Both the position numbers and the translations under genes were made by a program. Shown one piece after another: positions 3,001 to 52,702 of a DNA stretch of 64,000 nucleotides (the first letter of the stretch is position 1; every line of letters begins with the position of its first letter). Source of the stretch: Leptasterias polaris (taxonomy: Eukaryota; Echinodermata; Asteroidea; Forcipulatida; Asteriidae); assembly GCA_037783415.1 (NCBI GenBank), contig JAZGTN010000119.1, forward strand, positions 1 to 64,000. Reading direction: 5' to 3'. The notes beneath the pieces are model-generated. The model worked only from the letters and a program-made list of their open reading frames with translations, did no database searches and had not been told where the DNA came from.

Positions 3001-3060
3001 CTTACCACTAGTGATTTTATCAAAAATCAATTTAAAAACTGAGTTAATTGCAAGGCTTAC
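1..3060. repeat. 54-bp tandem array, about 56 units, runs off the left edge
   Basis: Unit about 54 bases with the core AAGGCTTACCCCTTGTGATT, followed by TTATCAAAAATCAGTCAAAA and variants (CAGAGATAATTGC, TGGAGAAAATAGC, or a version with GCAGTTAATAACGG). Since 54 is a multiple of three, one strand is open over long stretches, giving spurious ORFs. Each unit read on the gene's strand contains GGGGTAAGC, a good donor-like motif. Larger blocks are repeated too. Confidence 0.97.
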
Positions 3061-3236
3061 CTCTTTTGTTTTCTTTCATGAAAATCACAAACATGCTGAA
3101 ATAAGGAAGAGCTGAAGACTTTGTCTCTAAAATAACCACAGCATTTTAATTCATCTGCTCTATTTATCAAAATACATTTGCATGATGGCCTGGAAGCACC
3201 TAGTGTGTTTACATTGTATATACAATCAGTGTCTAC

Positions 3237-6222: not shown

Positions 6223-6371
6223 CTGCCATGACCTTGCTTTGTTCTTTGACCTCTTGAGCCAATGCTCTTCTCATTGCGAGGACCTCTTTTCTTGCTTGTC
6301 TCTCTTCTTCGAGTTTCATCCTAAGTTCGGTAGACTCGTGGTATCCCTGCACCTGATCCCAGTCAGACAAG
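6223..6371 (-). CDS. PLEKHA7-like: Alternative C-terminal exon: EEERQARKEVLAMRRAL helix
   Basis: A 149-nt exon. AG from the 12.9 kb exon plus C gives Ser, then LSDWDQVQGYHESTELRMKL, EEERQARKEVLAMRRALAQE, VKEQSKVMA. A strongly helical, charged, coiled-coil-like end. The donor GTCAGT is acceptable. If not spliced, the frame stops after GQLG at 6209-6211, so it could also be the final coding exon; no good poly(A) signal follows. Confidence 0.82.
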
Positions 6372-23031: not shown

Positions 23032-23083
<52 letters not shown>

Positions 23084-26000
23084 CACACACCAGCCAACGA
23101 GAGGTCTTCCATTGACCTCAATGAGGGCGCTATTTGAACTTGTGACATCGCAGCAAGGGGTTTATTGCCTCTTCAATACCAAATATTCAATTTTGTATTT
23201 TCCAAGTCTTTTTTAAGGAATCTAACTTGTGGCAAGGTGAATATTTTGATCAACAATTCTCAAAGTACTTATAAAACTTTCTTTCAATAAAAACTTCAGC
23301 GTGTGGAGTTCAACCACTGCATCCGCCTGCAAACAATTTTGCAGACTTTCTTTTTTGACAAGAGGTCTTGTATCTAGACTACATTCTGCATTCTATGACT
23401 GAGCATCTTTAAGCAACACAGCAACCAGATCAGTACCTGTGATCCCTCGCTCACTCTCAAGCTTTTTTTCTTGGATTTGAGGACGGGTTCCGCCTCGGTG
23501 TCGGAGAAGGCGCCATGATTGGAATCAGTGTTGGTGTTCTTGTTGGGTGACCCCGGCATGAGTCGATCCTACGAAAATCGGTTTGCCATTGGTTTAAAAT
23601 CTTAAACTATAGACCATGTGACCTTTGTTTACAGAGTAGTGACCTTGTACATTCTAATGCAATTCCTGACGGGCAAGATACTAGTACACAGGCCATATGG
23701 GAAAATTTACATTTTGTGTCATAATTTTCACATAAATTCAAGAGCTACAAAAGCAACAGCTGTACAACTTTTGAGATGTCCCCCCTTTCTTCATATCAAA
23801 AGTTGAGAAAAATCAGACAGTGCAATCTCCAAAAAACATAACATTGATTGTATTCTTCCATTGAGCTGTGACAAACTGTGCCTGCAGGAAGTCCAGGCTC
23901 TGTCTCTCTTTTGTAAACATGTGACATCACAGGTCACATGGTCTATACTTAACATTTAAAAAAGTTATCGATAGTTATAAACATCTTGAGTTGTCTTTCG
24001 AACTCAATAAGGTCAAAAGGAGTTGAAGTTTGTGGTGTTTGAAGCTTTGCATGGTGTGAAAAACAAGAAATAACTATAAATAGTAAACAAGAAATAACGT
24101 AAACTTGCGGGTACAACCATGTGTAAATCTCTCATGGGAGGAGGAGTGTTGGCTCTGAAAACAACCGGTGTGGTCTGGACGTTTCGAACAGTAGACTCTG
24201 CTCGTCTTGAGTTGAAGTTTGTTCATTTACCCGGAAATTGTGACAAATGTTGGGACTAGAATGGGCTTTCTGTAAGTCTTCATAACATTTCTGAAATAAT
24301 TTGTTGATGTTATTCTTTGATACCGCTTGACTTTAACCAAGATAAGAAGTGCTTCGTGGTCACTATTAGTCATCCTCATTGACCACTTAAACCAGACAGA
24401 TCAATTAACTCTGCATCTTTTCTTGAAGGGTGTAATTAAAAAAGGAATACAGAACAGTTTAGTTATAATGTTTAGTTTACCTAATCCACATGAATGTATT
24501 CAATTAATCAGAACTGTTAATTTATATTAATCATGAAAATAAACTTGCTCAGAACTCCTCCAAATGTTTCCTTGTTTTAAACTCTGTGAGAAAGTTTAAA
24601 CGATGAAATAAATTTGCTTCGAACTCCTCCCAATGTTTCCTTGTTTTAAACTCTGTGAGAAAGTCCAAACGATGAAATAAATTTGCTTCGAACTCCTCCC
24701 AATGTTTCCTTGTTTTAAACTCTGTGAGAAAGTCCAAACGATGAAATAAATTTGCTTCGAACTCCTCCCAATGTTTCCTTGTTTTAAACTCTGTGAGAAA
24801 GTCCAAACGATGAAATAAATTTGCTTCGAACTCCTCCCAATGTTTCCTTGTTTTAAACTCTGTGAGAAAGTCCAAACGATGAAATAAATTTGCTTCGAAC
24901 TCCTCCCAATGTTTCCTTGTTTTAAACTCTGTGAGAAAGTCCAAACGATGAAATAAATTTGCTTCGAACTCCTCCCAATGTTTCCTTGTTTTAAACTCTG
25001 TGAGAAAGTCCAAACGATGAAATAAATTTGCTTCGAACTCCTCCCAATGTTTCCTTGTTTTAAACTCTGTGAGAAAGTCCAAACGATGAAATAAATTTGC
25101 TTCGAACTCCTCCCAATGTTTCCTTGTTTTAAACTCTGTGAGAAAGTTCAAACGATGAAATAAATTTGCTTCGAACTCCTCCCAATGTTTCCTTGTTTTA
25201 AACTCTGTGAGAAAGTTCAAACGATGAAATAAATTTGCTTCGAACTCCTCCCAATGTTTCCTTGTTTTAAACTCTGTGAGAAAGTCCAAACGATGAAATA
25301 AATTTGCTTCGAACTCCTCCCAATGTTTCCTTGTTTTAAACTCTGTGAGAAAGTCCAAACGATGAAATAAATTTGCTTCGAACTCCTCCCAATGTTTCCT
25401 TGTTTTAAACTCTGTGAGAAAGTTCAAACGATGAAATAAATTTGCTTCGAACTTCTCCCAATGTTTCCTTGTTTTAAACTCTGTGAGAAAATTCAAACGA
25501 TGCAGTGCACTTCTCTTGTTTCTTTTTAACCAGACATTTATTGTAAGAAATTAAAAAAAGCTTGAGTTTAATTACCATTGCGGAGAGTTTCCGGTCATCG
25601 CCGTCAGGTGTTAGCCCTTTACGATCAGGGACTGATCGACTCCGACGCATCGGTGACCCCGGGATGACCTCACCGGTACGACTGATGGTGTGATCTGAAA
25701 AGAAAAAGATATATGAAATGATCATCACTGATTTTATATGAAATTTTGATTAAAAGTTATCGAAAGTCAGGAATGAACCATGAAACATTCCCATAAAAAA
25801 TGTAAAGACCAATTTTTCTTTGGAACTCTCTTTCACATCACATCAAAACTGCAAGAACTCAAATTGTATTGAAATCGCTACGTAAAAGTTACCTTTTGTT
25901 TAATTGCCTGTATGCGTGTTTATCTGCCTTAATTGTTGTAAAGCGCATCGAGACTTTTGAGTGATGCGCTATATAAGTACTGTGTTATTATTATTATTAT

Positions 26001-29000
26001 TCTTAGAATGATGTCATCAGATGTTTTGGATGTTGACAAACTTTGCACTGGATGAGTATCAAATACAACGGCAATTTAGACCATTTTAATGTGATGTTAG
26101 AGACTTGTGATTTTTCCCCCACTCACATGAGGACTCTTTCTATAGGAAAATGAGAACATCACAAAATTGAAATCGGGTCATTTGCATTCCTCTTTAAAGT
26201 TATATCTTAATTCATAAGAAGACGTCATCAAAATGAGAACTTACACTTTGACTCTTTTGAGGTTTTTGGTCGCTTCCCATGGCCTCCTATAGTGTTTCTC
26301 TTCTCTGATCTGTCGCCATGTGATGTAGGTTGGGCTGATCCATTTCGTACTAGGGAGGATATAAAAACCGGAAATGGTTTATCGATAGAAACAGATCACA
26401 ACGCCCTGAACCACTCACTGAGGTACTCACAATGGGTCGATTCTTTGGAGAAATTCCTTTCATGAAACACGTGTTATTCCTTTAAAACCAGACGCATAAA
26501 AGAATATTAAGTATTAGATATTGGTAGAGCTAGTTGAAAATCCTACCTCTATCATGAGACAATGGATCACCCCTTGGAGGATCAGTGGAAGGTCTTGAGT
26601 AGTACTGATCATCTCTATTAGGAGATGGTTCCATTTGCTGTTGAGGGGGTTGTTGGTAGCGTGGTTGTGGGTGGAGTATTTGAGGGGAGGCATGATATGT
26701 CGATTGATTTGTTGTTGAGATGGCTGACTCAAGTACAGGAGACTGCTGAACTTGTTGTTCCTTTATTTGCTGTGGACAAAATAAAATAAACATAAATATT
26801 TTGCCTTGGCAACTTTGGCATATACTTTAAATTTCTGATTATATTAGACAATCTATTAAACAAGCTCTAACCCTAGCCCTTTACAGGACTCTTCCTCTGT
26901 GCTGTTCACAGATACAGAGTCCTAGATATGAGGTCCCATCTGGGGCGGAAAAATTTCGACGAAATTGACGGATTCATGAGGAAAATAAGGCGTTCGAAAC
27001 CCACAGCGGAAAAAAGTATGCTGCCATGGAATGTGAATCCGGTGAAATTAGTGGCTACTTGCAGGTACGATTTGAGTTATGAAGCTTTGAAAATTGTCCG
27101 CCCCAGAAATGGACCCTCATATCCAGGACGTCACTGTAGTATAATATGAAAGTGAAAGGACGCCAGGGTTAACCCTAACCCTAACCTACCCTGACTTTGT
27201 TGAAACTATCACCCCTTCTACGGAGTGGTGGAGCTAGTTTAGAGCTGTTATCGTCCGGTGTCGTTGCCATGGTAGCAGATGATGTGTTGATGTCACGTGA
27301 CATCATAGTGTCTAGGTCAGTTACCGTATACTGTTTTGGAGTACGTGGTGAATGCTCGTGTCTACGACGGGGAATCTTCTCCTGCACCACTGTGGACAGA
27401 AAAGAAAAAAAATCAACGATTAACAGGGGTGAGAGTCATTGCTGACAAACAAGTCCGAACCTAGTATCTAAAGTTTAGGAGGCAAGCTAAAACGATGGTA
27501 ATTCCACCTTTTAGTTACCATGGTTACCCCTGGGGTTTAGATTTTACAGAGCTTTTAGAAACCGTGTCCTCAGCACTAGAGAAGCACTAACCTACCCCGA
27601 CTTTGTTGAAACTATCACCCCTTCTACGGAGTGGTGGAGCTAGTTTAGAGCTGTTATCGTCCGGTGTCGTTGCCATGGTAGCAAATGATGTGTTGATGTC
27701 ACGTGACATCATAGTGTCTAGGTCAGTTACCGTATACTGTTTTGGAGCAGGATTTTTTCAATTGTGGGAAAAAATAACAGCCGTTTTTTTTTTTTTCTCC
27801 GGGCAGACCAAACACGTCTGAATTCAGATAAAAAGTCTGAAATTTCTCATCCCTGATTTAATTAAAGAAAAAGTTTCACTTCTCTGTTGAAAAATTATGA
27901 ACTCCTACAACAATTTTGAAAGGTCCACTTTTGATGGCATGGTTTGAAACAAGGAATTTATGTGATGTTTTTGTGGTGTCAAAACAGTTGTATTTTTTAA
28001 AAGTACAAGGTAGCAATGTTTGTAAACCCGAGAACTGCTTTATAATGTCCACAAGTGTTGTGTAATGCACCGTAAAAGAACCCAGTGCACTTATCGAAAA
28101 GAGAAGGGGTTTGCCCCGTTGCTCCTGGTTTGATTGGCTGCATATTGCGCCACAGCACCTTGTAAACCATTACATGGTGCTATGTAAAGGAATAGGTCTC
28201 ATACTTCAAAACGTAGCTCCACATACCTTGCAGGAAAATACTGACTGATGAAGCGCCTTGAGTGCACTGAGTAACGGATATGAGCGCTATATAAGAAGCC
28301 ACTATTATAATACTCTTAGCTGGTAGAACAAATCTTTATGGTTGACGATGAGACAACGCTTTGATTATCAACAGCTTTCATTTGACTTCAACAAGGTTAG
28401 AGGTCAAAGACTGGAGCGACAGTCTGAGATGGTGTTCTCACCTTCAGGGGATCCAAACTTGAGACTCTGCATCTGATTAACGAGCAGGTGTCTCTGTTTA
28501 TCCAAACTGTCCATCAAGGACTGAACTCTGGTGACCTCAGTCTCCATCTGAAGCCTCTCTTTAGTGCTAATTCCATCCTGATTTTGGGTTGAACAAGGAA
28601 AAATTGACTAGAGCGGGATTTGAACCAACGACTTCCGGATTAACATGCCGGAGCTCTACCAACTGAGCTAACTAGCCCTATGTTGGCGGTCTCCCTATGT
28701 TGTCTCCCTTGTGGTTTATTATTTGATATCTAATTCCATCCTGTAAGATCAAGAATCAATAATAATCTACAATTCAACTATGGCGTGTCATGGCCGAGCG
28801 GTCTAGTGCACCTAACTTACGCTCTGGGCCCAATTTCAAGAATGAAACAAATGGCCCAGTGATTGCAATACAAACAGAAACACAGATGGTGGACAAACTG
28901 ATCAACTAACAGATTGCCATACAAACAGAAACACAGATAGTGGACAAACTGATCGACTTACAGGGAGATTGCCATACAAACGTAAACACAGATAGTGGAC

Positions 29001-32000
29001 AAACTGATCAACTAACAGATTGACTTACAGGGAGATTGCCATACATACAGAAACACAGATAGTGGACAAACAGATCAACTAACAGATTGACTTACAAACA
29101 GAAACACAGATAGTGGACAAACTGATCGACTTACAGGGAGATTGCCATACAAACGTAAACACAGATAGTGGACAAACAGATCAACTAACAGATTGACTTA
29201 CAAACAGAAACACAGATAGTGGACAAACTGATCAACTAACAGATTGACTTACAGGGAGATTGCCATACATACAGAAACACAGATAGTGGACAAACAGATC
29301 AACTAACAGATTGACTTACAAACAGAAACACAGATAGTGGACAAACTGATCGACTTACAGGGAGATTGCCATACAAACGTAAACACAGATAGTGGACAAA
29401 CTGATCAACTAACAGATTGACTTACAGGGAGATTGCCATACATACAGAAACACAGATAGTGGACAAACAGATCAACTAACAGATTGACTTACAAACAGAA
29501 ACACAGATAGTGGACAAACTGATCAACTAACAGATTGACTTACAGGGAGATTGCCATACATACAGAAACACAGATAGTGGACAAACAGATCAACTAACAG
29601 ATTGACTTACAAACAGAAACACAGATAGTGGACAAACAGATTGACTTACAGGGAGATTGCCATACAAACGTAAACACAGATAGTGGACAAACAGATCAAC
29701 TAACAGATTGACTTACAAACAGAAACACAGATAGTGGACAAACAGATTGACTTACAGGGAGATTGCCATACATACAGAAACACAGATAGTGGACAAACTG
29801 ATCAACTAACAGATTGACTTACAGGGAGATTGCCATACATACAGAAACACAGATAGTGGACAAACAGATCAACTAACAGATTGACTTACAGGGAGATTGC
29901 CATACATACAGAAACACAGATAGTGGACAAACAGATCAACTAACAGATTGACTTACAGGGAGATTGCCATACATACAGAAACACAGATAGTGGACAAACT
30001 GATCAACTAACAGATTGACTTACAGGGAGATTGCCATACATACAGAAACACAGATAGTGGACAAACAGATCAACCAACAGATTGACTTACAGGGAGATTG
30101 CCATACATACAGAAACACAGATAGTGGACAAACAGATCAACCAACAGATTGACTTACAAACAGAAACACACTCAGAAACTTACGCAGAAACTTACACTCT
30201 GGGCCCAATTTCATAGACCTGCTCAAGCAGAAATTACTGCTCAACAATTTCCTGCTAGGCAGAAATGAGCATGATACCAGTCAAAAATGTTTACATGTGA
30301 GATGGTAGATTGGCTGGTAACCTTATTCTGGTAAGCAAATAAATGTTATTGTGCTTAGCTACTTTTTGTGCTTAAGCAGCTCTATGAAATTGGGCCCAGG
30401 TGGCTTTGTCATTAGGGTGTGGGCTTGAATCCCAGCCAAGACACTTGTGCCCTTGACAGGGATGTGATAGGTTGTTGAAAGCGCGAAAGCTTGCGAGCTC
30501 GAAAACCTGCGAGCACGAAGCCCACTGATAACATTTACCTTTGGTTTTAAAAGCCCTACTCTGCAATCTGGGGCGTTATATATGGTTTTATCTTAATTTT
30601 TGTATAAATTTGATTTTAAGTAGAACAAAAAAAGGAGGGCAAAAATTTCCGGTTAAAAACAGAGGAATCACATCCCTGCCTTGAGCAAGACACTTCCGTT
30701 TTAGCTTGATGCACTACTTACTTAGTAAGCACAGGCTGTAAACTCCTAAGGGAGCTGAGATGGTTCAAAGAATGAAACAAATGGCCCAGTGATTGCAATA
30801 CAAACAGAAACACAGATGGTGGACAAACTGATCAACTAACAGATTGACTTACAGGGAGATTGCCATACAAACAGAAACACAGATAGTGGACAAACTGATC
30901 AACTAACAGATTGACTTACAGGGAGATTGCCATACAAACAGAAACACAGATAGTGGACAAACTGATCAACTAACAGAATGACTTACAGGGAGATTGCCAT
31001 ACAAACAGAAACACAGATAGTGGACAAACTGATCAACTAACAGATTGACTTACAGGGAGATTGCCATACAAACATAAACACAGATAGTGGACAAACTGAT
31101 CAACTAACAGAATGACTTACAGGGAGATTGCCATACAAACAGAAACACAGATAGTGGACAAACTGATCAACTAACAGAATGACTTACAGGGAGATTGCCA
31201 TACAAACATAAACACAGATAGTGGACAAACTGATCAACTAACAGATTGACTTACAGGGAGATTGCCATACATACAGAAACACAGATAGTGGACAAACAGA
31301 TCAACCAACAGATTGACTTACAGGGCTCTTGGCACTACGATTATGACGTCCTTCCAGTTTAGATCTCAACAGAGTCACCTCAAATTCTATCTTTCCATTC
31401 TCTGCAGCTACTTCTTCCAGTTCCTTTTAAAAGGGTGTGTACAACATTGGTAAGATTGAAAATATAAATGCTCACAGATTTGCACATATGGTATAAAGAT
31501 GGTCATGGTGGGAAAACTACAGTTGAAATAGTTTTGCTTGAAATGCTATAGTTTTTAGGAAAATTAGTCTTTATCACTGGTGATAAAATCTGATGATTGA
31601 AAACAGTGAAAACATAGAATGGGGTTTTTCACTGTTTTCTCTTATCATGCTATCGTAAAGAGATAGGGTTCAACCCAGTGTTCCTGGTCTGATCGGCAGC
31701 ATATTGCACCAACGCACCTTTTACCATTACATGGTGCTATAAAGGAAAAAAGGTCTCATACTGTACTAACGTAGCTCCACATACCTTGCAGGAAAATAAT
31801 ACTGAGCGCTTTGATACGCCCCTAGGGGTGTGATAAAGCGCTATATAAGAACCGAGTATTATTATTATTATGATTATTATGTGGTTATTGACAGCAGGAC
31901 AATCATTGTCAATGTCCTCAGGATTCTTTACATCTCTGGCAGTGACATGCTTACCTTTGTTCCAACCGCAAGCTGCGTCCGAACCTTGACCAGATCTCTC

Positions 32001-35000
32001 TCAAGACGATGTTGCTCGTATTCCATATCGGCGACTGCATCAGGTTCATCCCAGTACTTATCCATCTGACGTCGGAGACGATCCAAAGACGTCTCAATCC
32101 TATCTTTGTCTTCTTTAAGGAGTGAGACGTGAGCGGACATCTCCTGTAACTTCTTATCTAAACTGTATAGATGGTTTAACTTCTCCTGTATATACACAAA
32201 GTATTTGAGATTTAATAGGAGACCGTCGACCTCTCACTTTGAAAGTTTGACGAGGTAAAATAAATGATAAGAAATCAAGGAATACAAGCAGGCAGTTTGG
32301 GAGATGGAAATTAAATAAACGTGTCAGTTGATCACTGTAATGTATGGGAAGAGTCATCAACATAATATACCAAGATATAAACCATTAGGGAAACGGACTG
32401 GGTAATTTTTTTAAAATTTGAACAAAGAAAAAAGTTACTAGAGCAGGACTTGATCATGCGACCTCCGGATCAACGTGCCAGCGCTCTATATACCAACTGA
32501 GCTATCTAGCCCTAACGACAGGAAGACTGCCAACACTAGGGCTAGATAGCTCAGTTGGTAAAGTGCCCACACGTTGACCAGAGGTCTCAGGTTCAAGTCC
32601 CGCTCTCGTCAAATTTACTTTATTCAAGCAAAAACATATATCTATAAGCATTATTAAGTTGGTTTGATGACACAACAAACACAAAAAACAGTGATAAGTG
32701 GAAAACAGGTTTGTTGTCATAACAAATAGACAGGATATGAATATTCAACAAAATGAACTTCCAGGGTAACATAATCTGCTCTAACAGAAGGGAGGTCAGA
32801 TATTTAGAAATTATTTTGGAGATCTAGGGATTCAGAGCATGGAAATTAATATATGAGAAAAACAAACAGAATGCCTTTGGATTTGACGAATGTCTATTCA
32901 AAATAAAAACAGCTATTCTTTACAACAATTCAAAGATCTTTATACCACATTTTGCACCAAACAGCCACTTTAACACAATTCGTTTACATTCAATATCACA
33001 AAATAAGACGCTCACAAAACTTGTCACAATATCGTTTGACAAATGACGTCAAATATACAACTTCATTTTCAGGTGCAGAAATCACTTCACTGTTTATTTA
33101 TGTCACATTTATGATTTGGAAAGTGTAGGCCAGGCATAGGGTGATGCAGGATTTGAGGATGGCAATTGGAAAAAAGGAAAAAAGGAAAAAAAAGGATCTT
33201 CCAGAATTGAATGTCTATTTTACCTTCTCTTGAATGAAGTAAACAATCTGATAAAATGATGGAATAGGAATTAAGACAACATGAAAGACAGAACGAAAAG
33301 CAAGATCATTTGGATCACAGTCAGGGGAAATTCAATAACGCCTAAAAAAGAAAAAGTTTTATGTTGGCGTAATGGGCAAGAAAAAATAGGGTAAGTAAGT
33401 AATTTTTTTTTATTTTTTTTATTTTTTATAGTCTAGGTATCTGATAGGACATTCCAGCATTATTAACCTTACAGTATTTAAATGGCCTAGATTGTTGCAG
33501 ACTGGCTGAACGAGACTACATGTATACATGTACTAGAGTATCAGCCAGCGACGATCTTCTGCAATCTGCATGCTGTGCCAAAACAATGTGCACTCCAAAG
33601 TCCCATACAATTGAAGAGAAATGGTCAAAAATGGTTTCAAACCTATTTATAACTGATTTCTATAGATTTTAGTAATTACATTTCTTCTCTTGAAAAAATA
33701 TATAAAAATATCCAGGGTAGTTTAGTCGGGTTACGCCAACTTGTTTTTTTAGGACTAAGCTACAAAGATCACAATTTTAAACCTTGAAACGGAATCTGGA
33801 CACTGTACCAAGAACCCTCGGAGCATGAACAAGTACAAGCGGCAAAATTGCTTTTACTATTTTTATTTCCGATGAAGTTATACTAAAAATATGAATATCT
33901 CTAGGTTATTTATAAAGGGAAGGTATACGTTTGGTAATCACTCTTAAAAGAAACGGCAATAAAAACTAATACTTGGTTAGAAGTACAGCAGCTTTTGACA
34001 CTATAAAGCATTTTGAGAATCATTTCACTTCGAATTAATGTAGGTACGGGAAAAGTATATAAGTTTTCATCCCCCAAAATTTGAGTCTGATAAACGTAAC
34101 AGTCAGAAACCTTGTGTATTCCAATTACGGATTATTCTTCCTGCGTGGACATATTCGCTCCGGTTTTTCGCCGATATCACAAAAACATTACCACCTTTTG
34201 AAATGAAATTTTCAGTTAGTTTTATTTTATATATCTACATTTATACAGGATTAAAATAATCGAACGGTTCCAAAAACCAAAGGTTTACGCTCCCTTTAAT
34301 ATTATATTGATATTGAAGTAATGCGCCCTGACCTCTAGAAGTTTATCTTCAACCGTCTGTATCTGTTGTAATTCTCCTTTTAAGTCCCGGTTTAGTTTCT
34401 CTTCTTCGAGGCGTCGAGAGAACTCAATCAGTTTCTTAGGTTGAATATGATCCAAGTCTTTCTGTACCTTGTCCTGGGGAGTTAAAAAATCAAATCATTG
34501 GAATCACTCCAGGTCATTCTGAGTCAGGTTTTAACTCTTTCCTTACCATAGGCAATTTTAGTCAACTGCACTCATACCCCCTCTTCCTTACCATTGGCGA
34601 CTTTAGTCGACCAAGCTTACACACAAAAAAGCACTCAAGCCTGAGCACAAAGGTCATTTGTAATAAAGCTGCATTTTTGTCCATGTTCACCCTCCATACC
34701 CAAGCTTACCATCAAGATCGGATCTTTCCGATGATGGTCAAATAAAATAAGGTTGCTATTTTGCAATCTCTTCAAATCGGAGTTGAAAGATCCGAAATGC
34801 CAAACACCTACGGAGAGCAATATGGTTGTGTACAAAAAAGTGTTTGAGATTACAGATCACACTGAGGAAAGAAAGACAAAGAACTTTGGCATTTATTTAC
34901 CGATCTTAATGATTGTTTGATTATATGAAAGGGAATTCAATAAGTGAGAACTTTTTTATTTATTTTGCAGTAAAACAGTATCTTCACAGAGATAACTGAC

Positions 35001-38000
35001 TTTGTAAAAATGGCCTCAAACGAAAGCTTTCTGTTGTCTATGTGTGCTTCACGCTTGAGTGGTCAAACAATGCGGTCACCAGCAGTTTTTTATGTCCAAA
35101 CAATTCGATAACGAAAAGGTTAATTCATTCATGCTTTTTGGAAATTTAGTCTAGGGTAATCTGTGCGATGGTGAAACAGTACAAGTCCCATGTGTGTAAG
35201 CTTCTAATGTGGAGTTAAGACAAAATCGGCGACTGCAGTCATGTGACCCATAGTGGGTATACAATGTAAACAAATCAAGCAAGCAACGCACAGCGTGAAT
35301 GGAAACGCATGGCTGCTTCCGAGCGCTTCTGCTGTAACATGGGAAGCAGCCATGCTTTTCCATGCTCACTGTGCATTGCTCGCTGGGTTTGTTTACATTG
35401 TATGCCCACTATGAGTCACGTGACTCCGGTCGCCCATTGTGTCTATTCCATGAAGGGCTGCTAACTTATGATGTAGTTTTTCCCTAAGTGGTTAGACCTT
35501 GCTAGCATTCCTTGGTATTAGAAATACAAGTTTACTTTGTTTTTATTACAGAACGTTAAAATAATGAGGTAGTTCTCCCTACCTTGTAGAACTTTCTAGT
35601 ATTCCTTGGTATTACAAAGCTAAAGGTACTTTGTTATTATACACAAAATAGTAAAATAATGATGCAGTTTTCCCTACCTTGTAGAACTTGCTAGAATTAT
35701 TTGGTTTTACAAAGCTAAAGTTACCCTGTTTTTATTTACAGAATGGTAAAATAATGATGAAGTTTTCCCCTACTTTGTAGAACTACCTGGCTAGCATTCT
35801 TTGGTTTTACAAAGCTAAAATCACCCTGATTTTATTTACAGAATGGTAAAATAATGATGCAGTTTTCCCTACCTTGTAGAACTTGCTAGAATTATTTGGT
35901 TTTACAAAGCTAAAGTTACCCTGTTTTTATTTACAGAATGGTAAAATAATGAATAAGTTTTCCCCTACTTTGTAGAACTACCTGGCTAGCATTCTTTGGT
36001 TTTACAAAGCTAAAATCACCCTGATTTTATTTACAGAATGGTAAAATAATGATGTTTTCCCCTACTTTGTAGAACTACCTGGCTAGCATTCTTTGGTTTT
36101 ACAAAGCTAAAATCACCCTGATTTTATTTACAGAATGGTAAAATATGGTAAAATAATGATGAAGTTTTCCCCTACTTTGTAGAACTACCTGGCTAGCATT
36201 CTTTGGTTTTACAAAGCTAAAATCACCCTGATTTTATTTACAGAATGGTAAAATAATGATGAAGTTTTCCCCTACTTTGTAGAACTACCTGGCTAGCATT
36301 CTTTGGTTTTACAAAGCTAAAATCACCCTGATTTTATTTACAGAATGGTAAAATAATGATGAAGTTTTCCCTACCTTGTAGAACTACCTGGCTAGCATTC
36401 TTTGGTTTTACAAAGCTAAAATCACCCTGTTTTTATTTACAGAATGGTAAAATAATGAATAAGTTTTCCCCTACTTTGTAGAACTACCTGGCTAGCATTC
36501 TTTGGTTTTACAAAGCTAAAATCACCCTGATTTTATTTACAGAATGGTAAAATAATGATGAAGTTTTCCCCTACTTTGTAGAACTACCTGGCTAGCATTC
36601 TTTGGTTTTACAAAGCTAAAATCACCCTGATTTTATTTACAGAATGGTAAAATAATGATGAAGTTTTCCCCTACTTTGTAGAACTACCTGGCTAGCATTC
36701 TTTGGTTTTACAAAGCTAAAATCACCCTGATTTTATTTACAGAATGGTAAAATATGGTAAAATAATGATGAAGTTTTCCCCTACTTTGTAGAACTACCTG
36801 GCTAGCATTCTTTGGTTTTACAAAGCTAAAATCACCCTGATTTTATTTACAGAATGGTAAAATAATGATGAAGTTTTCCCCTACTTTGTAGAACTACCTG
36901 GCTAGCATTCTTTGGTTTTACAAAGCTAAAATCACCCTGATTTTATTTACAGAATGGTAAAATAATGATGAAGTTTTCCCCTACTTTGTAGAACTACCTG
37001 GCTAGCATTCTTTGGTTTTACAAAGCTAAAATCACCCTGATTTTATTTACAGAATGGTAAAATAATGATGAAGTTTTCCCCTACTTTGTAGAACTACCTG
37101 GCTAGCATTCTTTGGTTTTACAAAGCTAAAATCACCCTGATTTTATTTACAGAATGGTAAAATAATGATGAAGTTTTCCCCTACTTTGTAGAACTACCTG
37201 GCTAGCATTCTTTGGTTTTACGAAGATAAAATCACCCTGATTTTATTTACAGAATGGTAAAATAATGATGAAGTTTTCCCCTACTTTGTAGAACTACCTG
37301 GCTAGCATTCTTTGGTTTTACGAAGCTAAAATCACCCTGATTTTATTTACAGAATGGTAAAATATTGATGAAGTTTTCCCCTACTTTGTAGAACTACAAT
37401 GCTATCATTCTTTGGTTTTACAAAGTGAAGGGCACAATGTACTTTGATTTTTATTAACAGAATGTCAAAAATAATGATTGAATTGTACGTACCCTGTAGA
37501 ATTCCCTCGCTATCATATGGTTCTCCCCTCCATACAAACTTCCCATCCGGACCAGGTTGTCCACCAGGTGGACCAGGGGACCGCTGATCTCAAGTTCTCG
37601 CTGAACCTCTTCTCGCTCTAGCTCCAACTCTTCATAGAACTGTCTCTCTTCATTCAGGTTTGGATTGGAACGACGATGTAAGGAGTCACCATGCCTATAA
37701 GTCAATAAAATAATTTAAAAAAAAACCAAAAAAACCCCCAAGATTTTAAAATATGGGATTTGAGGCATTGCATGGTGCGGTATCAATATATATTTGGTTT
37801 GCAGTAACACCATGTGTATATCTACTTGCTAGGTAGATTTTGTTCTTTGAGAAGTTGTCTTGCTATTTATTCTACTGCCACGGAGTAGATTATTCGGAAT
37901 TCGGGAGACTTCTCAGTTCTTAAAAGAACTGTCCTGCTTATTAACTACTACCTGGGCGGGAGGTAGGAAATCGGCCGGGACTACTAGATTTGTAAATCTC

Positions 38001-41000
38001 TAAAAGATTCGACAATATTAGAAAATATACATGTAGCACTGAAGTAAATGTACAGCCGACCAAAGACAGATATGCATTATGCAACAACTGTATAGTATTT
38101 TGGGGGTTGAACAAAGAAAAATTTACTAAAGCGGGATTCAAAACAAGGACCTCCAGAGACATGCCAGTGCTCTATCAACTGAGCTATCTAGCCCTATGTA
38201 GGCGGTCCCCCTATTTTGTCAATATCTTTGTTCACGGGTGCCAGTCAGAAGTCAGGGATCACACCCAAGTTTACGATACAACCTGGGAAGCGGCAGCCAA
38301 GGGATCTTCTTAAGGGGATGCAATTTTGTTTAATTTCAAATATCAAGTAATAAACCACAAGGGAAACTGACTGGGTAAAGTTGAAACAATTTGGGGTTGA
38401 ACAAAGAACATTGTATTAAACAGTAAATTATTCTTTGTTCAACTCTAATTATTAAAAATTTACCCCGTCAGTTTCCCTTGTGGTTTATTACTTAATGTTT
38501 AGTATTTTTTAAACATATACATGTAGTTATTTAGATATACTGAAAAACTGATTTCTTAGCAAATTCTGTTAGGATCCTTCATCAATGCGAGTTCTTGATA
38601 CAGAAAGACCAAGAGACAGATAGACAAATAAAAGTTGAACCAAATTACCGTGCTCTTATCTTGCTTGGACTTCCAGGTGGGGTAGTCGGATCAATCAACA
38701 AAGCTAATTCTTGATCAATCATATCCAACCATCGCTCCAAGTTGGACTGATCTCGACGAAGTTGAATCAATAACAACACCAGCTCTTCATGCTACAATAA
38801 AACCCAAACAATCAAAAAAAAATAATTGTTTGCAAAATGTTCAAAAAGAAACCAAAGTGGAATAAAGGACATCACACAAACATACGTTTGTGAATCCCGC
38901 TAATCAAGGACTTCTCTTTGTTCTCCCATTGTTTGGACTTCGGTTTTTTTAGCGACGTCCCCACTGGTTTTGTACACGAAAGCAAAGCAAGGACGTCCTC
39001 GCTCTGTCAAACACCCGGATCCCTTTTGTTAAAGTCCTCGGTTTGAATGGATAGACACGCTCACACACATACATATACAATGTAGCTCTCTGTTGCAGTC
39101 ACTCTGTGGACATTCCTTTGTTCTATACACTAATGGAAAATCCTATTCCTCAACACTGTAAATAACACTGTGTGGATGTGTGTAAGTCCACATAGTGTTT
39201 CAAGTCCCTACATTGTGTAGACCTCTTTTGTTCTTAGGTCCACACTTCGTATGTAGCATTAAAACACACACACACAGCCTATTTTTTACATCCCTGTGGA
39301 GACACCTTTTGTTCTTTCCTTTGTCTCTGTACTTGAACATCCTCCCATAGACTTTGTACACAATTTGTATTATTATTATGGTTGATTAAAATACTGCAAT
39401 ACAGCAGCTAAAAGCAGAAATGTACAGTTTATAAAAAACAGTCATTAAAATCTAAAAAGAGCACCAGCAATAAATTACATGTACATAAACAGATAGAAAT
39501 ATCAAACAGTTATTAAGAAATATATAAAAAACACATGCAATAAGTTTGTGATAGCAGAATATACTCAAAAAGCCCAAAGTGGTTTGATTAGATTATAATT
39601 CATCCATTGCTCATGACCCGAAGAGCCTGTCCACAAGATAAAAGTATTAAAGTGTGGAAAAGGTGCATCATTTTGTAATGCAATGTGACTATCATTTCAG
39701 CTATTATTATTGTTGCACTTATTACAAATTCCTTGTGGACCACCAAAGTCTTTAGATTTCCACTATGGAGACCTTTTAGTTTTCTCTTTTTTTGTTTTGT
39801 CCTCTGTCTCCATAAGGTAGTGAATTTTATGAGGAATACTTAAAGGAAATGAGGTCTGGTAGGAGGCTGAGAAGTCTCAAGTGCAGAACCAATAGATATT
39901 TAAACTCCTTTCTACCACATTCTATTCGTATTCTTTACGACAGTCGGTAACTTTCTTTCCTGTTATTTCTTGTTTTAGTTTTTTATGAAGTAAATTTTGG
40001 GATGTGCCTTTGTGTAAATACAGTTTTTAAGTTTTTATTAAGTGTAAAATATTGTTCTTCTTCAGAATAATTTGTAATTCTGTTATTTTTAAAATACATT
40101 TTTACAGTTATGAGCATGTTCGACAAAGCAAATTTCCATTTTGTGGACAATAAACATTAAATTGAATATTAAAACAAACGGGAAATGCAGTATTATGTAC
40201 TAACCGATTTCCCAAGAAGATCCCCAGCAGCAATGCTCAGACGAAGACGGATACCGGTCGACAGGAGGATATAAGGCTGGGTTTTCATCTGCCACTTACG
40301 GAAACGGCTTGTAGGCTCTCTCGGCTGAAAATGAGGGGAAAAAATCATCATCAGCGAAAAATATTACACTTGCTTTGAAATACAAGATTATTGCCTTACG
40401 GAAACGAGTTGTAGGCTCTCTCGGCTGAAATTGAGGTAACAAAAATCATTATCAGCAAAAATATTACACTTGCTTTAAATGCAAAGTATACCATTGGTTT
40501 TTGGAATCGTTCAATTGGAGACTTTTGGAAATCTCTGCCACAAGAGGGCAGCAGACCTACCAGGTAAAGTTGTTGTTTGGCTGTTGCACTAGTACTACAC
40601 AGTGTTAGGCTTTCGGATGGCGGGAGAAAAGGAAATAAACAACTATGTCGTCTGTCTGTGATCCCACTGTCTGGCAGTGTTGTCAGTGTATGTTCCGTCT
40701 CTAAAAATGCTTAGAGTAAATCATGTCACTTGCAGATTGGCCTCCTAGATCGGCCCTTGTCGTTTGTGACTGTACGGATTGCAATGCTACTGTGCTACTC
40801 GCCACACTCAGCACACCACTTTTTATTCCAGAACAGTTTGGTACTGCACACGACGTGTTTGGTATTGTGTTATCAAATCAAAAATACAGTAGGGTTGAAT
40901 CTAAAAAAACTAAAAAAACAAAACAAAAAAACAACACGCAAAACGCGAAGTATTTGTTGACGAGTGCTGTCGGTGACCGTCACTCCCATGCTTTTCCTAT

Positions 41001-44000
41001 TCCTAAAATTTTGACTTTACCTGGTGACGAGCGCCCTCTCTTGGTGATTAGCTGAAAGTCTAAAGTCTCCCATTATATTAATCCCATACAAATGTACACA
41101 CAATGTGATGGAAAAAGTTCTCAGACTCAATTTTGGGGGTTCATAAAAACTGATATCTTTTTACATAACCACATTTCTTCGAAGTGAAATGTTTCTCAAA
41201 ATTACTTCTAACAAAGTAAGTTTTTATAGCCATTAATTTTAAGAGTGATTACCAAACGTACGTATGGACCATGTTACCTTTGTTTACAGAAATAGTAACC
41301 TTGTACATTCTAATGCATTTCCTGACAGGCAAGATACTACACAGGCCATGTGGGAAAATTTACATTTTGTGTCATAATTTTCCACATAAATTCAAGAGTT
41401 ACAAAAGCAACAGCTGTACAGCTTTTGAGATGTCCCCCCTTTCTTCGTATCAAAAGTTGAGAAAAATCAGACAGTGCAATCTCCATAAAACATAAGATTT
41501 ATTGTATTCTTCCATTGAGCTGCGTACAAACTGTGCCTGCAGGTAGTCCAGGCTCTGTGGCTCTTTTGTAAACATGTGATGTCACAGGTCACATGGTCTA
41601 TACCTTCCCTTTAAAGATTGTACTCACCCCTTTACTAGGTCCGTTACCCTCAGTGAGTGGGGCTAACATATCCCCTCCATTGTACTCATTTCTCTCCAAA
41701 GTATTCCTGTTTGAACGACCCTTCTGCTTGCCATTCTTGGGTCGGCTTGGAGCAATGTCTGCCTCCGTGACTCCACCTGGGATCATTAGAAATGAGTTTA
41801 ATTCATAACCCAGCATTCAATTACAGACAGAACTTCTTCTGAAATGGCGTGTTGTGGCCGAGCGGATAAGAGCACCGGACTCAAGCTCTTGTGCTTCTGT
41901 TCAGCAGAGTGTGGGTTCGAGTCCCGGTCGTGACACTTGTGTCCTTATGCAAGACACTTAACCATTATTGTTGCGTCCTTTGGATGGGACGTAAAGCCGA
42001 GCGGATAAGAGCACCAGACTTAAGCTCTTGTGTTTCTGTTCAGCACGTGAGTACGTCACTGTGCATGTACGCTGCTAGTCAGTGGTCAATCATGGGTCGA
42101 CTATAAAATGTGCGCACTCGAACTTGCTCATTTTTGAAAAATGTACAGGGTTCTTAAAATTGTTCAAGCGTACGTGACAGCTGCAAAGTACATGTATATG
42201 GGGGTTTACTTACCAGTTTCCTCTTCACTGATTGGTGACGCTAACCTACGCGGATGGTCATAGTGGGAGGCCCTCTGTTGGTTGGGACTCTGAGAGGGTG
42301 CGGCAAATGTTGGATTGGTTGGTGTTGAGCGCTGTATGACGGCTTCAACAGGTTGTGGTATGTAGTCAGATTGTGGTAGATGCTCCATGCTACGCTGAAC
42401 TGGAGTCTGCCTGTCACTGTGGGGTGTAAAAATACAAGCAGATCCTAATCGTAAGAAACAATAATATGGAGTCAAGATCTACTATGGTTGTTAAGGGAGC
42501 ATTGTACACATTCTGCCTGCATAAAGTCCAGGCTCAGTGGCTCTTTTATGATTATGATCAGGTAACATGGTCTATCATAGGACAGTTGCCTTGACACCTG
42601 TTTATTATAAATCTAAAATGATTTTGCTAAATGCACAAATTCAATTTCTTTTAGAACATGGTATGCTTTCCTACCCTTCTGACTGTTTGTCTTTCGCCTT
42701 GTAGTATGAATCTGGTATGTTGGTCGGCCATTCAGCCTCGTTCTTCTGATAAACCATGGGACTATTGAGGTCTGATCGCTGCTCAGGGGTCAAGAGGTCA
42801 TGGGTCGGCTGAACTAGAGGACTCTGAAGGATTGACCTCTGTTCTAGAGTTACGCCACCTTGTTCCTGGAAGAAAACAACAAAAGGAGATATCAGTATTT
42901 GATCGGGATTATTGTCAATACATTTTAGAGGCGATATTACAAGATTTTTCATGGCTCATTTTCAAACTCAATTGTCAGCAGACTTCTCTCAAACCATTAG
43001 TGTTGCATCTAATCACAAGGTCGCAGAAGCCTTGACTATAAACCATTAAGCAAAACACTTAACCATTATTGCTGCGTCCTTCGAATGGGACGTGAAGCTG
43101 TTGGTCCTGTGTGTTGCAAGGTTTTAGCCAGGATTTGGTAAAAGGGTGTCCAAATCTGCTGGAAATTTAAAAACTGGGTGTCCAAATTGTTCACTTACAA
43201 TACATTTACATGTAAATGACAGATGAAACAGGGTGTCCAAATTTAAAACAGGGTGTCCAAAAGACACCCAGACATCCCTCTGGCTAACACTATGGTGTGT
43301 TGTGAATGCACGTAAAAGAACCCAGTGCACTTATTGAAAAGAGAAGGGGTTCGCCCCGGTGTTCCTGGTTTGATTGGCTGTATATTGTGCCACAGCACCT
43401 TGTAAACCATTACATGTAAAGGAATAGGTCTCATACTGCAAAAAGTAGCTCCACATACCTTGCAGAAAAATACTTAATGTTGAAGTGCCTTGAGCGTCAC
43501 TTAGTAACGGATATGAGCGCTATACAACAAACCACTATCATTATTATCATTATTGTTATTATTATTGACTATCTTATGGACACCCTTGATTTTAAAATCA
43601 ACAAAAGAGGCAAGTAGAGTCTCACCATAATCCCATTCTTGGGGATCTTGAAATGCAATGCCTCTGGTGGACGCCTTCCTTGGGTTGCTTCCACTTCCCT
43701 CTTATCATCATCTTGGGGCCCAACTCTACTAGGATCAATCCTCTGGGGGTCACTTCTTCTTCTGGGGTCACCTCTAAGATCTCTTCTTTGGTCACCTCTT
43801 GGGTCAATCCGTCTTGGATCACTTTGTCTAGGATCGCCTCTTGGGTCACCTCTTGGGTCACTTCTTCTAGGGTCCCCTCTCGGGTCACTTCGTCTTGGGT
43901 CCCTTCTGGGGCCAGTTTGTCTCGGGTCCCCTCTTGGGTCACTTCGTCTTGGGTCACCTCTGGGGTCACCTCTGGGGTCACCTCTTGGGTCACTTCTTCT

Positions 44001-47000
44001 GGGGTCACTTCGTCTTGGGTCACTTCTTGGTTCTCTTCCTTGAAGAGGATCTCTAGATTGAGATTGTCTCCCATCAACTGATCCATGAGCAGATCCTGTT
44101 GGAGTTGACGATTTGGAGATATCCGAGCCAGGTCTGTCTTGGCCTCTAGGTTTGCGATAATCAGGAGGTAAGGTGGCCGCTTGATGAGGTCCTCTTGGTG
44201 AACCCTCCATAGATGACGGATATGGTGACCTCTGGCTACGATCAAGGGACCTAGTGGCTTGTACATCACGAGGATCACGTCTACGATCGTCCCGGTCTTG
44301 ACTTCTATTTGAATCGGACCAAGCATCATGATCTTGAGGTCGTTGTCCTCTCTGAGGTTGGTCGGGTCTTCGTCCATCGCCCCACGGAGACAATGCAGGA
44401 TTGCCGGAGGGACTTGGTAACGAGTCTGTAGTAGACGAGTCATAGTTACCTCTGTTGCCATGGTCACCAGGATGCCCAGACAGACTGTTGTCTAATTAAA
44501 AACAAAAACAACCAAATAGAAAGTTTCAAGAAAATGAAGGAAACAATTTATCTCCCTAAAGGGTGTTTGTAACATTGGTAAGAGTAAAAATAAAATTGTT
44601 CACAGATTCAAGCATAACTTACATGGTATAAAGATGGCCATGGTGGGAAACTCCCTTTCAAATATTTTTGCTTGAAATGCCATAGTTTTTGAGAAATGAG
44701 TAAAACAATTAGTTTTGATCTCACGAGTCAAAAACTCAATGTTTGAAAACAGTGAAAACATATACGGTTTTTTCCCACTTTTTTCTTGTGATTCCAATGA
44801 CCGATTGAGCTTAAACTTTCACAGGTTTGTTATTTCATGTATATGTTGGGTCACATCAAGTGTGGATACAGGTCTTTGGCAATTACCAATGTTACAAATG
44901 TGCTTTAAAGGGTGTGTACTGGTAATTGCAAAAGACCTGTATCCAAACTTGATGTGACCCAACATATACATGAATAACAACCTGTGAAAGTTAAAGCTAA
45001 ATCGGTCTTCGGAGTCATGAGAAAACAGTGAAAAACCCCCTTATGTGTTTTAACTTCTTTTCAAACATCGGAATTTATCCTGCAGGATAAAGACTATTAT
45101 TTTACTCATTTCCTAAAAACTATGGCATTTCAAGCAAAACTATTTCAAGGGAAGTTTTCCACCATGACCATCTTTATACCATGTAAGTTATGTGTGAATC
45201 TGTGAACATTTATATTTTCATTCTTACCAATGTTGTACACACCCTTTAAACTCACAGAGACATATCAATGCTAATTTGAAATTCATCGGAAAAAGAAACA
45301 TTCATTTTGATTTGTTGGTCGAGATAGGGAGAGAAGTATTACCCGTGTCTCTGCGCTCCCTGGATTTGGACCTTGGCCGGGGAAGCGTTTTATAAGAGTC
45401 CGGATACTGACCAGGAGAATGTGGGGCTGTCCGCTCTCGACCCATGGACCGGGTTCGAGTTTTACCACCACTGGACAACGATCCACTCTCACGATCCCAA
45501 CTACGACGTTGATCTCCACTTTGCCTATCGCTGTTTCTATCGCCGTGTCTCTCACCGTCTCTGTCACTGTGTCTGTCCTGGGAAGCGTGACTCGACTCTG
45601 AATCTCTGTAAAGGAAAAAAAAGTTAATTAAAATTCAACAATATTAAAACGTTCATTAGTCAGTACATATCTTTATCGAGAATATGTGATATTATTGGTT
45701 TATTGAAATCATTAAAATAAATACATTTTCCATCGCAGCCTAGGGCCGAATTAGGGAAAACAATCACAAAGAAAAAGGAAAAGAAAAAACAAACAAAACA
45801 CACACATGAATAACAATATAAAAAAAACAGAAATATAAAACAAATTGATTCAAATATCAAACCCAAAACATCAAAATCAAAAGCGGCACAAAAAAAAAAA
45901 GAACAAATCACAAAAAGTAAACTGGAGAGCACTAGAGAGAATTTTTTTAAAAATAATTTAAAATCACTAACAAAAATTTAAAAAATAACAATTGACTACA
46001 TGAGACATTTTAGCTGAACAAGATTACCTTGTTCTGGGTCTATCTTGTCCCCGTCTTCTGTCCTCATCACGACCAGCAGTCCTTGACCCCTGCTTGGGCT
46101 GACCACTCCTTGGTCTCTCCTCATACTCAGCCCTCTCGACTGGAGCTGAGGAACTGACAACTCTCTCCGTTTCGGCCACAATTTGTCTATCCTGGTCACT
46201 TTCAGACAGTGAATTATATCCATCAGGTCTTGCATCACGTGAATCCAGTGAGTTGTATCCGTCTTGCTGATACCGTTCATTGTTTTCATCATCACCGCGG
46301 TAACGCTTATTGTAATTATCATTCTGGTCACGTTGATGTTGATCGGTCATCTCTTTCTGTTGATCATCGCCATCAGACTTTGACCGAGGGTCGTCGTCAT
46401 AGTAACGCTTCTTAAGATCTTGTTTCCCTTCTTCTAACGATGAGTAGCCATCTATGTCCTCATCTGGTGGGTAATCATAGATAGCTGGTGGATTAGTGTC
46501 TCCGTCACGTCCTCTCTTAATCTCTTCAGGCCATCTTCCTTGACCCTGGTCGAAACGCTCTCTTGCCTCCCAATAACCCTCCGGAGCGTTGTTATAACCC
46601 TCCTCATTGTTATGACGTTTCCTCTCAGGCTCATGTGGTTCCCTCGGTAACCGACCGTTAGGGTCAAACCCATTGGCCTGTTGTGGTGTTCTGTCGTCGT
46701 TGTAGTCATCGGGTATTGTGTCGTTGAAGTCCTTGGGGCTTTTGAATAACCAGTCCTCCTCATCCCTTCTGGAATTGTTGAGTGAACGAGATTGGTAATC
46801 TCTAAATCCTGCATCATCCTCATCATACTGAGGCCTCTCATGTTGCCTGTATTATACCAAAAATAACCATAATTGTAGCCTCTGCTACTAGGAATATACT
46901 CTTCTCTTTTCTCTCATATACACCCCTTCAATGATAACAAAAATAAGGACATTGCATGTTTATGCACATTGTATTCTGGTTACAAATATGAAAACATAAG

Positions 47001-50000
47001 GTAAACAAAGCCTGTGACGGTTACACAGTAAACCAATCGATCGTCCAGTTACATGTTTACACTTTTACGGAAAAAAAAATTCACTCAAAAAGTGGCGCGA
47101 AACGCTGACCACATTGCGACCCGATGTACACAACGCCTGATCCCATGCGACACACACAAGCGTATCGTTTTCAATTTACATACAGGCTTGTAGTCTTTAT
47201 TATTTTGTTACTGTGCATGCGCGGTTGTGTCCAAATTTGTTCAACTCCAAATTTTGTTCATGAAACGAGCGAATACACAAGGAACCAAACATATCAGAAA
47301 TGATAACACGTTTACAAAAATAACAGAAAACGCCGAGTTTAAAGGAAACGACAACTAGGGGATTCAAATAGTCTCAATTACTCACCCATCAATCTGCAAC
47401 TTGGCAGCAAGGTTTAAAGCTCTCATCCACTGATTCATATCACTCTGATTCTCAGCAGCTAGGTAGTATGTTCTCATATTATCATGCTCACACTGGGGGA
47501 AAAAAATAAAAAAATAATTCTCAGCAGCTGGGGAGTATGTTCTCATATTCTCATGCTTATACTGGGGGGGATTTTTTCTTTCTTTTTTTCTCAGCAGCTA
47601 GGGAGTATGTTCTCATATTCTCATGCTCACATTGGGGAAAGTAACCATTTTAATTCTCAGCAGCTAGGGAGTATGTTCTCATGCTCACACTGGGGAGGAA
47701 AAAGAATCATTTTAATTCTCAGCAGCTAGGGAGTATGTTCTCATGCTCACACTGGGGGAAAAGGAATCATTTTAATTCTCAGCAGCTAGGGAGTATGTTC
47801 TCATGCTCACACTGGGGGGAAAAAAGAATCATTTTAATTCTCAGCAGCTAGGGAGTATGTTCTCATATTCTCATGCTCACACTGGGGGAAAATCATTTTT
47901 AACTCAGCAGCTAGGGAGTATGTTCTAATGCTCACACTGGGAGGAAAAAGAATCATTTTAATTCTCAGCAGTTAGGGAGTATGTTCTATGCTCACACTGG
48001 GGGAAGAATCATTTTAATTCTCAGCAGCTAGGGAGTATGTTCTCATGCTCACACTGGGGGGGAAAAGAATCATTTTAATTCTCAGCAGCTAGGGAGTATG
48101 TTTTCATGCTCACACTGACTGGGGAGAATTATTTTTAATTCTCAGCAGCTAGGGAGTATGCTCTCATATTCTCATGCTCACATGGGGAAAAAATAATCAT
48201 TTTAATTCTCAGCAGCTAGGGAGTATGTTCTCATGCTCACACTGGGGGAATTATTTTAATTCTCAGCAGCTAGGGAGTATGTTCTCATGCTCACACTGGG
48301 GGAATTATTTTAATTCTCAGCAGCTAGGGAGTATGTTCTATGCTCACACTGGGGGAAAAGGGAATCGTTTTAATTATCAGCAGCTAGGGAGTATGTTTTC
48401 ATATTCTCATGCTCACACTAGGCGAAAAAAAAGATTTTTTTAATTCTCAGCAGCTAGGGAGTATGTTCTATGCTCACACTAGGCGAAAAAAACTATTTTT
48501 TTAAGTCTCAGCAGCTATGGAGTTTGTTTTCATATTTCCATGCTCTCACACTGGGGGAAATAACCATTTTAACTGTTCAGAGTAAATTAGTCAGAACAAA
48601 ATTACACACAAATTATTATTAAAATCTGACTAATTTCATTTATAATCGCTGGTGCAAGAATACAACATCAATCACGATTCAGATGAATCCCATTCAGATA
48701 AATGTAGTAATGACTTTACATGAACATGAAATACGGTAGGATCTAATATTCAAACAAAATAAAGGTGTGGCATTTGGTCTTAGGGGAAAAATAATTTCAC
48801 AACAAAAATACATCATTGCTTGTGCTTCGAAGGGCAAGAAATAAAAAATAACATAACATTTCTTTTTTTAAATACACTAATGTTTAATTAAACATAAGAA
48901 TTTAGACAATTAAAAAAACCCAGTTTCAGTCTTTTTTAAAAGTATATTATAAAATATACTTGTAGATTTCACATACATGTAAAACCATCAGATATTTTTT
49001 ATGTTGAACAATTTTGTCTGCATATTTTCATTCTTGAACCGAATTGTTAAAGAAGACAAACACAAATAAATCTGAGCAAAGATTAACAGAAACTGTCTTG
49101 AAAAACTTACCTTGAAAGCAAATTTCCTTGTAATTTTATCCTGAGGACCCACCGGACCAACAACATAACTAGGAATCAGAATGGAGCCAGCCTCACTCTT
49201 GGACTTGTCAACCCCTGGATGAAAATGATCATTAAACAAATAGAATTTTATGACTGTGTGGGTTTTTACGACTGTTGAATACCAAATGAGATGTTCTAAG
49301 TCAAAGAGATCATATTGTTTGTACATGGCACTTTAAAGGGAATGTATGCGTTTGGTAATCACTCTTAAAATTAATGGCAATAAAAACTCACCTAGAACTA
49401 AGACAGCTTTCAATAGTATAAAGCATTGAGAACCATTTTCAAGTAATGTCGTTATGAGAAAATATATCAGTTTTTATGCCCCAAATTTGAATCTGAGAAA
49501 CGTTACTGTTAGAAACATTTGCCAGATTGTTTATTCCTATAGGGATTATTTTTCCTGCGTGGACATATTCGCTCCGTTTTTGGGGCGATATCTGAAGTTA
49601 ATTTTTCACAAGTTAGTTTTTTTGTATACTACTTTTATACAGGATTAAAACAATCAAACGTTTCCCAAAACCAAAGGTATACTTTGCCTTTAAAGCAGTC
49701 TCTTGTCTATTACTGCCAACACATTTTACCCCCAGGACATTGTCAGGGATGTGACAGGCTGTTGAAAAAAACACCTGAACCCTGCATGGCCGTGACTACT
49801 ACTTTCGCTTAGCGGATCGAGCGGTCTCCTGACAATAACTAGAGCAAGCTAGTTGAATCGTTGAGACCAATTAAGCAATTAAGAACTCACTCCGTGGCAG
49901 TGAAATTAATCAAGAGAAGTCCCCTCGATCCACTAAGGTAGTATTCCCAGCCGATTTCCTACCTTCTGCCCAGGTAATAGTTAATAAGCAGGACAGTTCT

Positions 50001-52702: not shown

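Follow-up and report, generated by a model that had tools for sequence, protein, structure and literature searches.

Minisatellites built on exon edges in a PLEKHA5/6/7-type gene of a sea star are new cases of the mirage class

Minisatellites that contain copies of the adjoining exon-intron junction are known as mirages, and were reportedly first described by Canestro in 2002. Here we examine such arrays in the sea star Leptasterias polaris. They lie in a 64,000-nt stretch of genomic DNA (haploid assembly GCA_037783415.1, contig JAZGTN010000119.1, positions 1 to 64,000; "the window"), which carries one large PLEKHA5/6/7-type gene on its minus strand. In lancelets, mirages are reported in Adh3 and in the globin genes BflGb6 and BflGb9 (PMC3087553), as well as in PGBD5 (with 60- and 108-bp units) and in troponin C (PMC3902484). 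The reported lancelet units are 10-160 bp long (PMC3087553; PMC3902484). Splicing was described as normal by reverse-transcription polymerase chain reaction, and intron gain was proposed for the globins (PMC3087553). In humans, c.844_845ins68 in the CBS gene is reported to duplicate 68 bp at an intron-exon junction and to be spliced with a strong preference for the distal site, and a 31-bp variable number tandem repeat in the same gene (c.1444_1467+7) is reported to form an array at an exon's end (PMC2630376). Minisatellites or internal tandem repeats at exon-intron boundaries are also described in human segmental duplications (PMC2812944), and a potato intron is reported to have been gained via tandem duplication across an intron-exon boundary (PMC4974935). 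A first-pass annotation of the window stated that no described class of tandem repeat recurrently starts at exon-intron junctions. This was mistaken: the lancelet mirages belong to the same class, and there are the human CBS cases too (PMC3087553, PMC3902484, PMC2630376). The sea star arrays are new cases of this known class, not a new class. We found no earlier report of mirages in echinoderms in the open-licence literature, as judged by titles and the openings of abstracts.

The exon model of the window gene joins 28 exons, bounded by AG acceptors and GT donors, into a single frame of 1,843 codons plus a stop codon. The coding exons are numbered E1 to E29 and span 6209..52702 on the minus strand. 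(E27 was dropped from the model due to a frame break, and the gene's upstream exon or exons were not found.) Compared over its whole length, a 1,420-residue query from the joined protein is 84% identical to proteins of two Asterias species, A. rubens and A. amurensis; for Patiria miniata and Acanthaster planci, the identity is 56%. Further protein matches are named PLEKHA5 or PLEKHA7, and the protein has a PH domain (E = 1.4e-20).

Five introns of this gene contain arrays that are built on the adjoining exon edge. The units are about 60, 67, 100, 100, and 116 bp, and they differ from each other in length and sequence. In the orientation of the gene, arrays A2 and A4 precede E2 and E4 and contain copies of acceptors, and A13 and A16 follow E13 and E16 and contain copies of donors. 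Array A2 (50742..52447, minus strand, like all the arrays and exons below) has a 116-bp unit, with 15 copies of the acceptor and first 37 bases of E2, the exon at the start of the PH region (50447..50778; the real acceptor is just above 50778). The inner copies are 88-95% identical over 60 bp. Array A4 (47448..48575) has a unit of about 60 bp, with 18 copies of the acceptor and first 45 bases of E4, at the end of the PH domain (47386..47492). According to Tandem Repeats Finder (TRF), A4 ends at 48533; the most distal and divergent copy extends to 48575. The junction's AG has been lost in at least two inner A4 copies. Array A11 (40295..40484), with a unit of about 100 bp, has two copies of the E11 acceptor and 30 bases of the exon (40205..40324). 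Array A13 (35541..37516) has a 100-bp unit and 20 copies of the donor region of E13 (37493..37694), of which the copy at the edge is degenerate. Array A16 has a 67-bp unit and copies of the donor of E16 (31322..31423); it spans 28861..31325 in two blocks (28861-30170 and 30791-31325). (Array limits are from TRF and alignment, and all five exons were placed by the exon model and by alignment to sea star proteins. Copy counts for A2, A4, A11, and A13 are from aligning a probe of the exon edge and include the real site.)

The first-pass annotation had described four of these arrays, and TRF agrees with their positions and unit lengths (50742-52447, period 116; 47448-48533, period 60; 35541-37425, period 100; and the two A16 blocks, period 67). 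It had missed A11. So, the observation is largely real and somewhat richer than first described. The annotation also held that the real splice site is the outermost unit of each array. At the protein level this holds: at all five junctions, the outermost copy is predicted to be the site that yields the protein conserved in Asterias. The junctions beside the arrays align without gaps in both of the Asterias proteins (among four sea star proteins compared), and the exons that flank an array connect in frame in every case, just as in Asterias, with no additional exon in between.

We then asked how closely each array resembles its exon edge. In A2, A4, A11, and A13, the unit straddles the boundary of exon and intron, splice signal included. 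For A2, A4, and A11, the edge-probe alignment shows the copies plainly. In A13, the array ends short of the exon edge according to TRF, with 0 bp of exon, because the edge copy is degenerate (64% identity, on average, to the inner copies). When the exon part of A13 is aligned to the consensus unit, its score is 24, which 0 of 2000 shuffles reached, and which is also above all 1102 coding 26-mers and 28 other exon ends (the best of these scored 11). Against an early unit, the exon part scored 17 and one other exon end scored 18 (P = 0.0075 if the final four bases are fixed). Chance similarity was rejected for A2, A4, and A11 by the edge-probe alignment and for A13 by the exon-part test. Of the arrays first described, the claim that they repeat the exon edge holds well for A2 and A4, and for A13 with its edge copy degenerate.

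What A16 certainly has in common with the edge of E16 is only the donor and four bases of exon. The claim that this array repeats the exon's end is weak, because the similarity past those four bases is not significant if they are fixed (P = 0.13-0.15; P = 0.004 if they are not). A search of the genome with the A16 unit gave 14 matches, all within 28830-31322 of the same contig. Since matches to the unit lie only in its own intron, we rejected an origin from a repeat elsewhere in the genome. (A16 alone was searched in this way.) We also compared the identity between edge and inner copies to the identity among inner copies. These are 0.64 versus 0.86 in A13 and 0.83 versus 0.97 in A16 (using 13 A16 units), as compared to 0.938 versus 0.938 in A2 and 0.721 versus 0.727 in A4. 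In mirages, the inner copies are expected to evolve in concert, with the boundary copy excluded; such a pattern is seen in A13 and A16, and not in A2 or A4.

If the inner copies carry splice sites, are those sites weaker than the real ones? We scored them with a matrix derived from the 28 donors and 28 acceptors of the window gene (including the tested sites themselves). The 14 decoy acceptors in A2 score 14.0-18.1, while the real site scores 17.0 and the median for the gene is 11.9. In A16, 21 decoys have a 9-base donor that is identical to the real one (score 6.7). The A4 decoys score from -1.6 to 15.5, compared to 19.4 for the real E4 acceptor; the A11 decoy scores 8.6, compared to 11.9 for the real E11 acceptor; and the decoy donors in A13 score 4.1 in 15 copies and 9.8 in another 4, compared to 9.0 for the real E13 donor. 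Because the decoys at E2 and E16 are as strong as the real site or identical to it, strength alone does not explain the choice of site there. It is an established principle of exon definition that the two sites closest across the exon are paired, so the choice at E2 and E16 could be a matter of where the site lies relative to the exon's other end.

To escape the selection bias of the window, we sampled exons in the same genome that match the myosin head or the dynein AAA_6 domain. Along with their flanks, we took 20 of 77 myosin matches and 51 of 98 dynein matches, which were chosen by contig and closeness before the flanks were seen. Arrays cross 2 of the 142 edges of these 71 exons (95% interval, 0.2 to 5%). 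First, in a myosin gene (L044; G000:C25:4926942-4928363), four inner copies of the acceptor and the first exon bases precede a myosin exon that reads EPYYVRCVKPNE. Second, in a dynein gene (L051; G000:C98:1801210-1805738), the acceptor and about 50 exon bases are duplicated almost exactly ahead of a dynein exon that reads VLFRTVAMMVPDYALI. Therefore, the phenomenon extends beyond the window gene. As had been proposed, exon-edge arrays do recur, both within the window gene, where their units are unrelated, and in these two other genes. Four near misses were examined and left uncounted: L057, whose array begins about 22 bp past the donor, and L034, L042, and L055. Also, a low-powered look at codon usage, for exons beside 23 arrays in the 200 kb that follow the window, gave no clear mirage.

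We think that these arrays probably arose by random tandem duplication at the junction, which was tolerated and was followed by ordinary minisatellite growth. A tandem duplication of 60 to 116 bp would, by chance, span an exon-intron junction (or, in one case, merely touch it). The outermost copy would retain the entire exon edge and the splice site, so the message would be unharmed and the duplication would survive. Like other minisatellites, the array would then expand by slippage and unequal exchange, within the intron. The spliceosome would stay with the outermost copy, most simply by the pairing of sites across the exon, and the inner copies would be passive decoys. This account suffices for the cases outside the window; seeding at junctions may occur, but is not needed.

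The alternative that survives best is that splice junctions are true hotspots, where breaks or slippage tied to transcription or splicing would give rise to arrays at a higher rate than in the rest of the intron. We consider this unlikely. Donors as well as acceptors are involved, and the same kind of array is reported from lancelets (PMC3087553), which would both fit a hotspot. Whether arrays cross edges more often than expected depends on the null model. In the unit-seed null, single units are dropped into the gene after it is collapsed to one copy per array. (This set has 17 arrays, with the A16 blocks joined, A13 extended to its degenerate edge copy, and an array within exon E7 excluded.) The expected number of crossings is 1.18-1.63, and we saw 5 (P = 0.005-0.017; if 4 crossings are counted, P = 0.025-0.07). 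In the whole-array null, entire arrays are scattered randomly over the gene, and each may take in no more than 36 to 60 exonic bases. With the unmodified TRF limits, 4 of 19 arrays cross an edge; 1.8-2.7 of 18 or 19 are expected to (P = 0.09-0.27). Without the limit on exonic bases, the expectation rises to 7.2. (TRF rows with periods below 20 in the window, or below 25 in the sample, were dropped.) The unit-seed null suits growth by duplication better. So, the statement that these arrays are unlikely to arise by chance finds suggestive support in the unit-seed null and none in the whole-array null.

Two of these comparisons weigh against random duplication: the excess of crossings under the unit-seed null, and the rate per edge, which is higher in the window gene than in the sample (5/56 versus 2/142, P = 0.02, Fisher's test). 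A caveat is that the window was singled out for looking striking, so its P values flatter the excess, which is post hoc and only suggestive. Tandem arrays make up 23% of the window's bases, as compared to 5.8% of the next 200 kb, and 12 of the 17 arrays in the gene touch no exon edge. The share of arrays that cross an edge does not differ between the window gene and the sample (5/17 versus 2/11, P = 0.67), and the 2 crossings among the 11 sampled arrays compare to about 1.1 (range 0.7-1.4) expected under random placement, given the density of arrays in the flanks (P = 0.15-0.39). Nor, in this small sample of 11 sightings, is there a spike of exon-proximal array ends at the edge. Going outward from inside the exon, successive 60-bp bins contain 2, 2, 2, 0, 3, and 1 ends, with one farther out. 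(The 11 sightings are 10 distinct arrays, as one was seen from the overlapping stretches L034 and L035, and distances are from the ends of profile matches, which are not proven exon ends.) Seeding at junctions, which the first-pass annotation had favored, was not upheld in the myosin and dynein exons. We doubt that the junctions of sea stars and lancelets are genuine hotspots for the birth of minisatellites, driven by splicing or by structure that arises during transcription. If they were, a sizeable share of splice sites in these genomes would be multiplied, and each would naturally test how the outermost one is picked.

It had also been suggested that multiplied splice sites are selected, and they might provide alternative isoforms or hold splicing factors near the exon. 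The decoys in A2 and A16, which match the real sites in strength, would be consistent with this. But if the inner sites were used, a stop codon would follow for 50 of the 51 that we tested (14/14 at E2, 16/17 at E4, 1/1 at E11, 9/9 at E13, and 10/10 at E16). For E13 and E16, the tested donors are 9 of 52 and 10 of 34 that were scored; the others should also hit a stop, because there is one within 12 codons (E13) or 6 codons (E16) of the exon. The sole exception is an E4 decoy at 47561, which would add 69 nt in frame with no stop and so could favor selection, but it is a poor acceptor (score -1.6). Also, the cores of the decoys show no clear excess of conservation over the remainder of the unit, although this is a weak test, as the similarity of the copies is recent. 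Overall, selection for multiplied sites seems very unlikely.

That the arrays are steps in intron gain, in which an inner copy turns into an exon and splits the intron, has precedents in the proposal for the lancelet globins (PMC3087553) and in the potato intron (PMC4974935), but the present model contains no exon or intron made by an array, and we give this idea hardly any credence. An origin from mobile or satellite DNA that carries splice sites, or from faulty assembly, is just as improbable: another acceptor of the gene does have a short interspersed element (SINE) inserted on it, but the A16 unit, the one searched for in the genome, gave matches only in its own intron, and every array resembles its own exon edge.

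That SINE is a 149-bp tRNA-like element at 28567-28743, inserted directly on the acceptor of E17. The target-site duplication, 14 bp long, comprises the acceptor's AG and the first 11 exon bases, so the splice site of E17 exists twice, by a route that does not involve an array. Use of the distal acceptor copy would lengthen the message by 163 nt, shift the frame, and bring in a stop. Four more stretches of the window resemble this SINE. Another duplication lies in the intron upstream of E18, where 27587-27747 is a 161-bp copy, 98.8% identical, of the end of E18 and its donor. The window has other tandem repeats as well. A 27-bp repeat at 43756-44042 is entirely within exon E7 and encodes a stretch rich in DPRG/DPRR. 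A 69-bp array at 24537-25502 is 98% uniform, has an open frame of 333 codons on the gene's strand, and begins 74 bp past the E21 donor, without crossing the edge. A long 54-bp minisatellite occupies the start of the window (1-3072), downstream of the gene's stop codon. Among the gene's exons, E23 (20553-20783) has a GC donor (AAG|GCATGG) and is found in three of the four sea star proteins compared. A 24-nt microexon (33224-33247) is present in the protein from A. rubens; the compared proteins of A. amurensis, Patiria, and Acanthaster lack it.

Arrays like A2 and A16 are natural experiments on exon definition, in which the strength of the signal is nearly constant and its position varies. They are also a warning for annotators, as exon edges that adjoin minisatellites are easily misplaced.

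How do the sea star arrays compare to known systems? An introner-type mobile element would have related copies at other loci, and the genome search with the A16 unit gave no such copies. The potato gene is alike in its reported tandem duplication over an intron-exon boundary (PMC4974935), but the sea star arrays have formed no new intron. Human segmental duplications also have minisatellites at exon-intron boundaries, but those repeats are reported to change the exon-intron structure (PMC2812944), whereas the exon model in the sea star is unchanged. The human CBS cases differ in being polymorphisms, in a single gene. The lancelet mirages are alike in that the sea star units, at about 60-116 bp, fall within the reported range of 10-160 bp. 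The sea star differs in the host, in having five arrays in one gene, and in having up to 20 or more copies. Three genes of one sea star contain seven cases, of which one is weak, and this suggests that mirages are not peculiar to lancelets.
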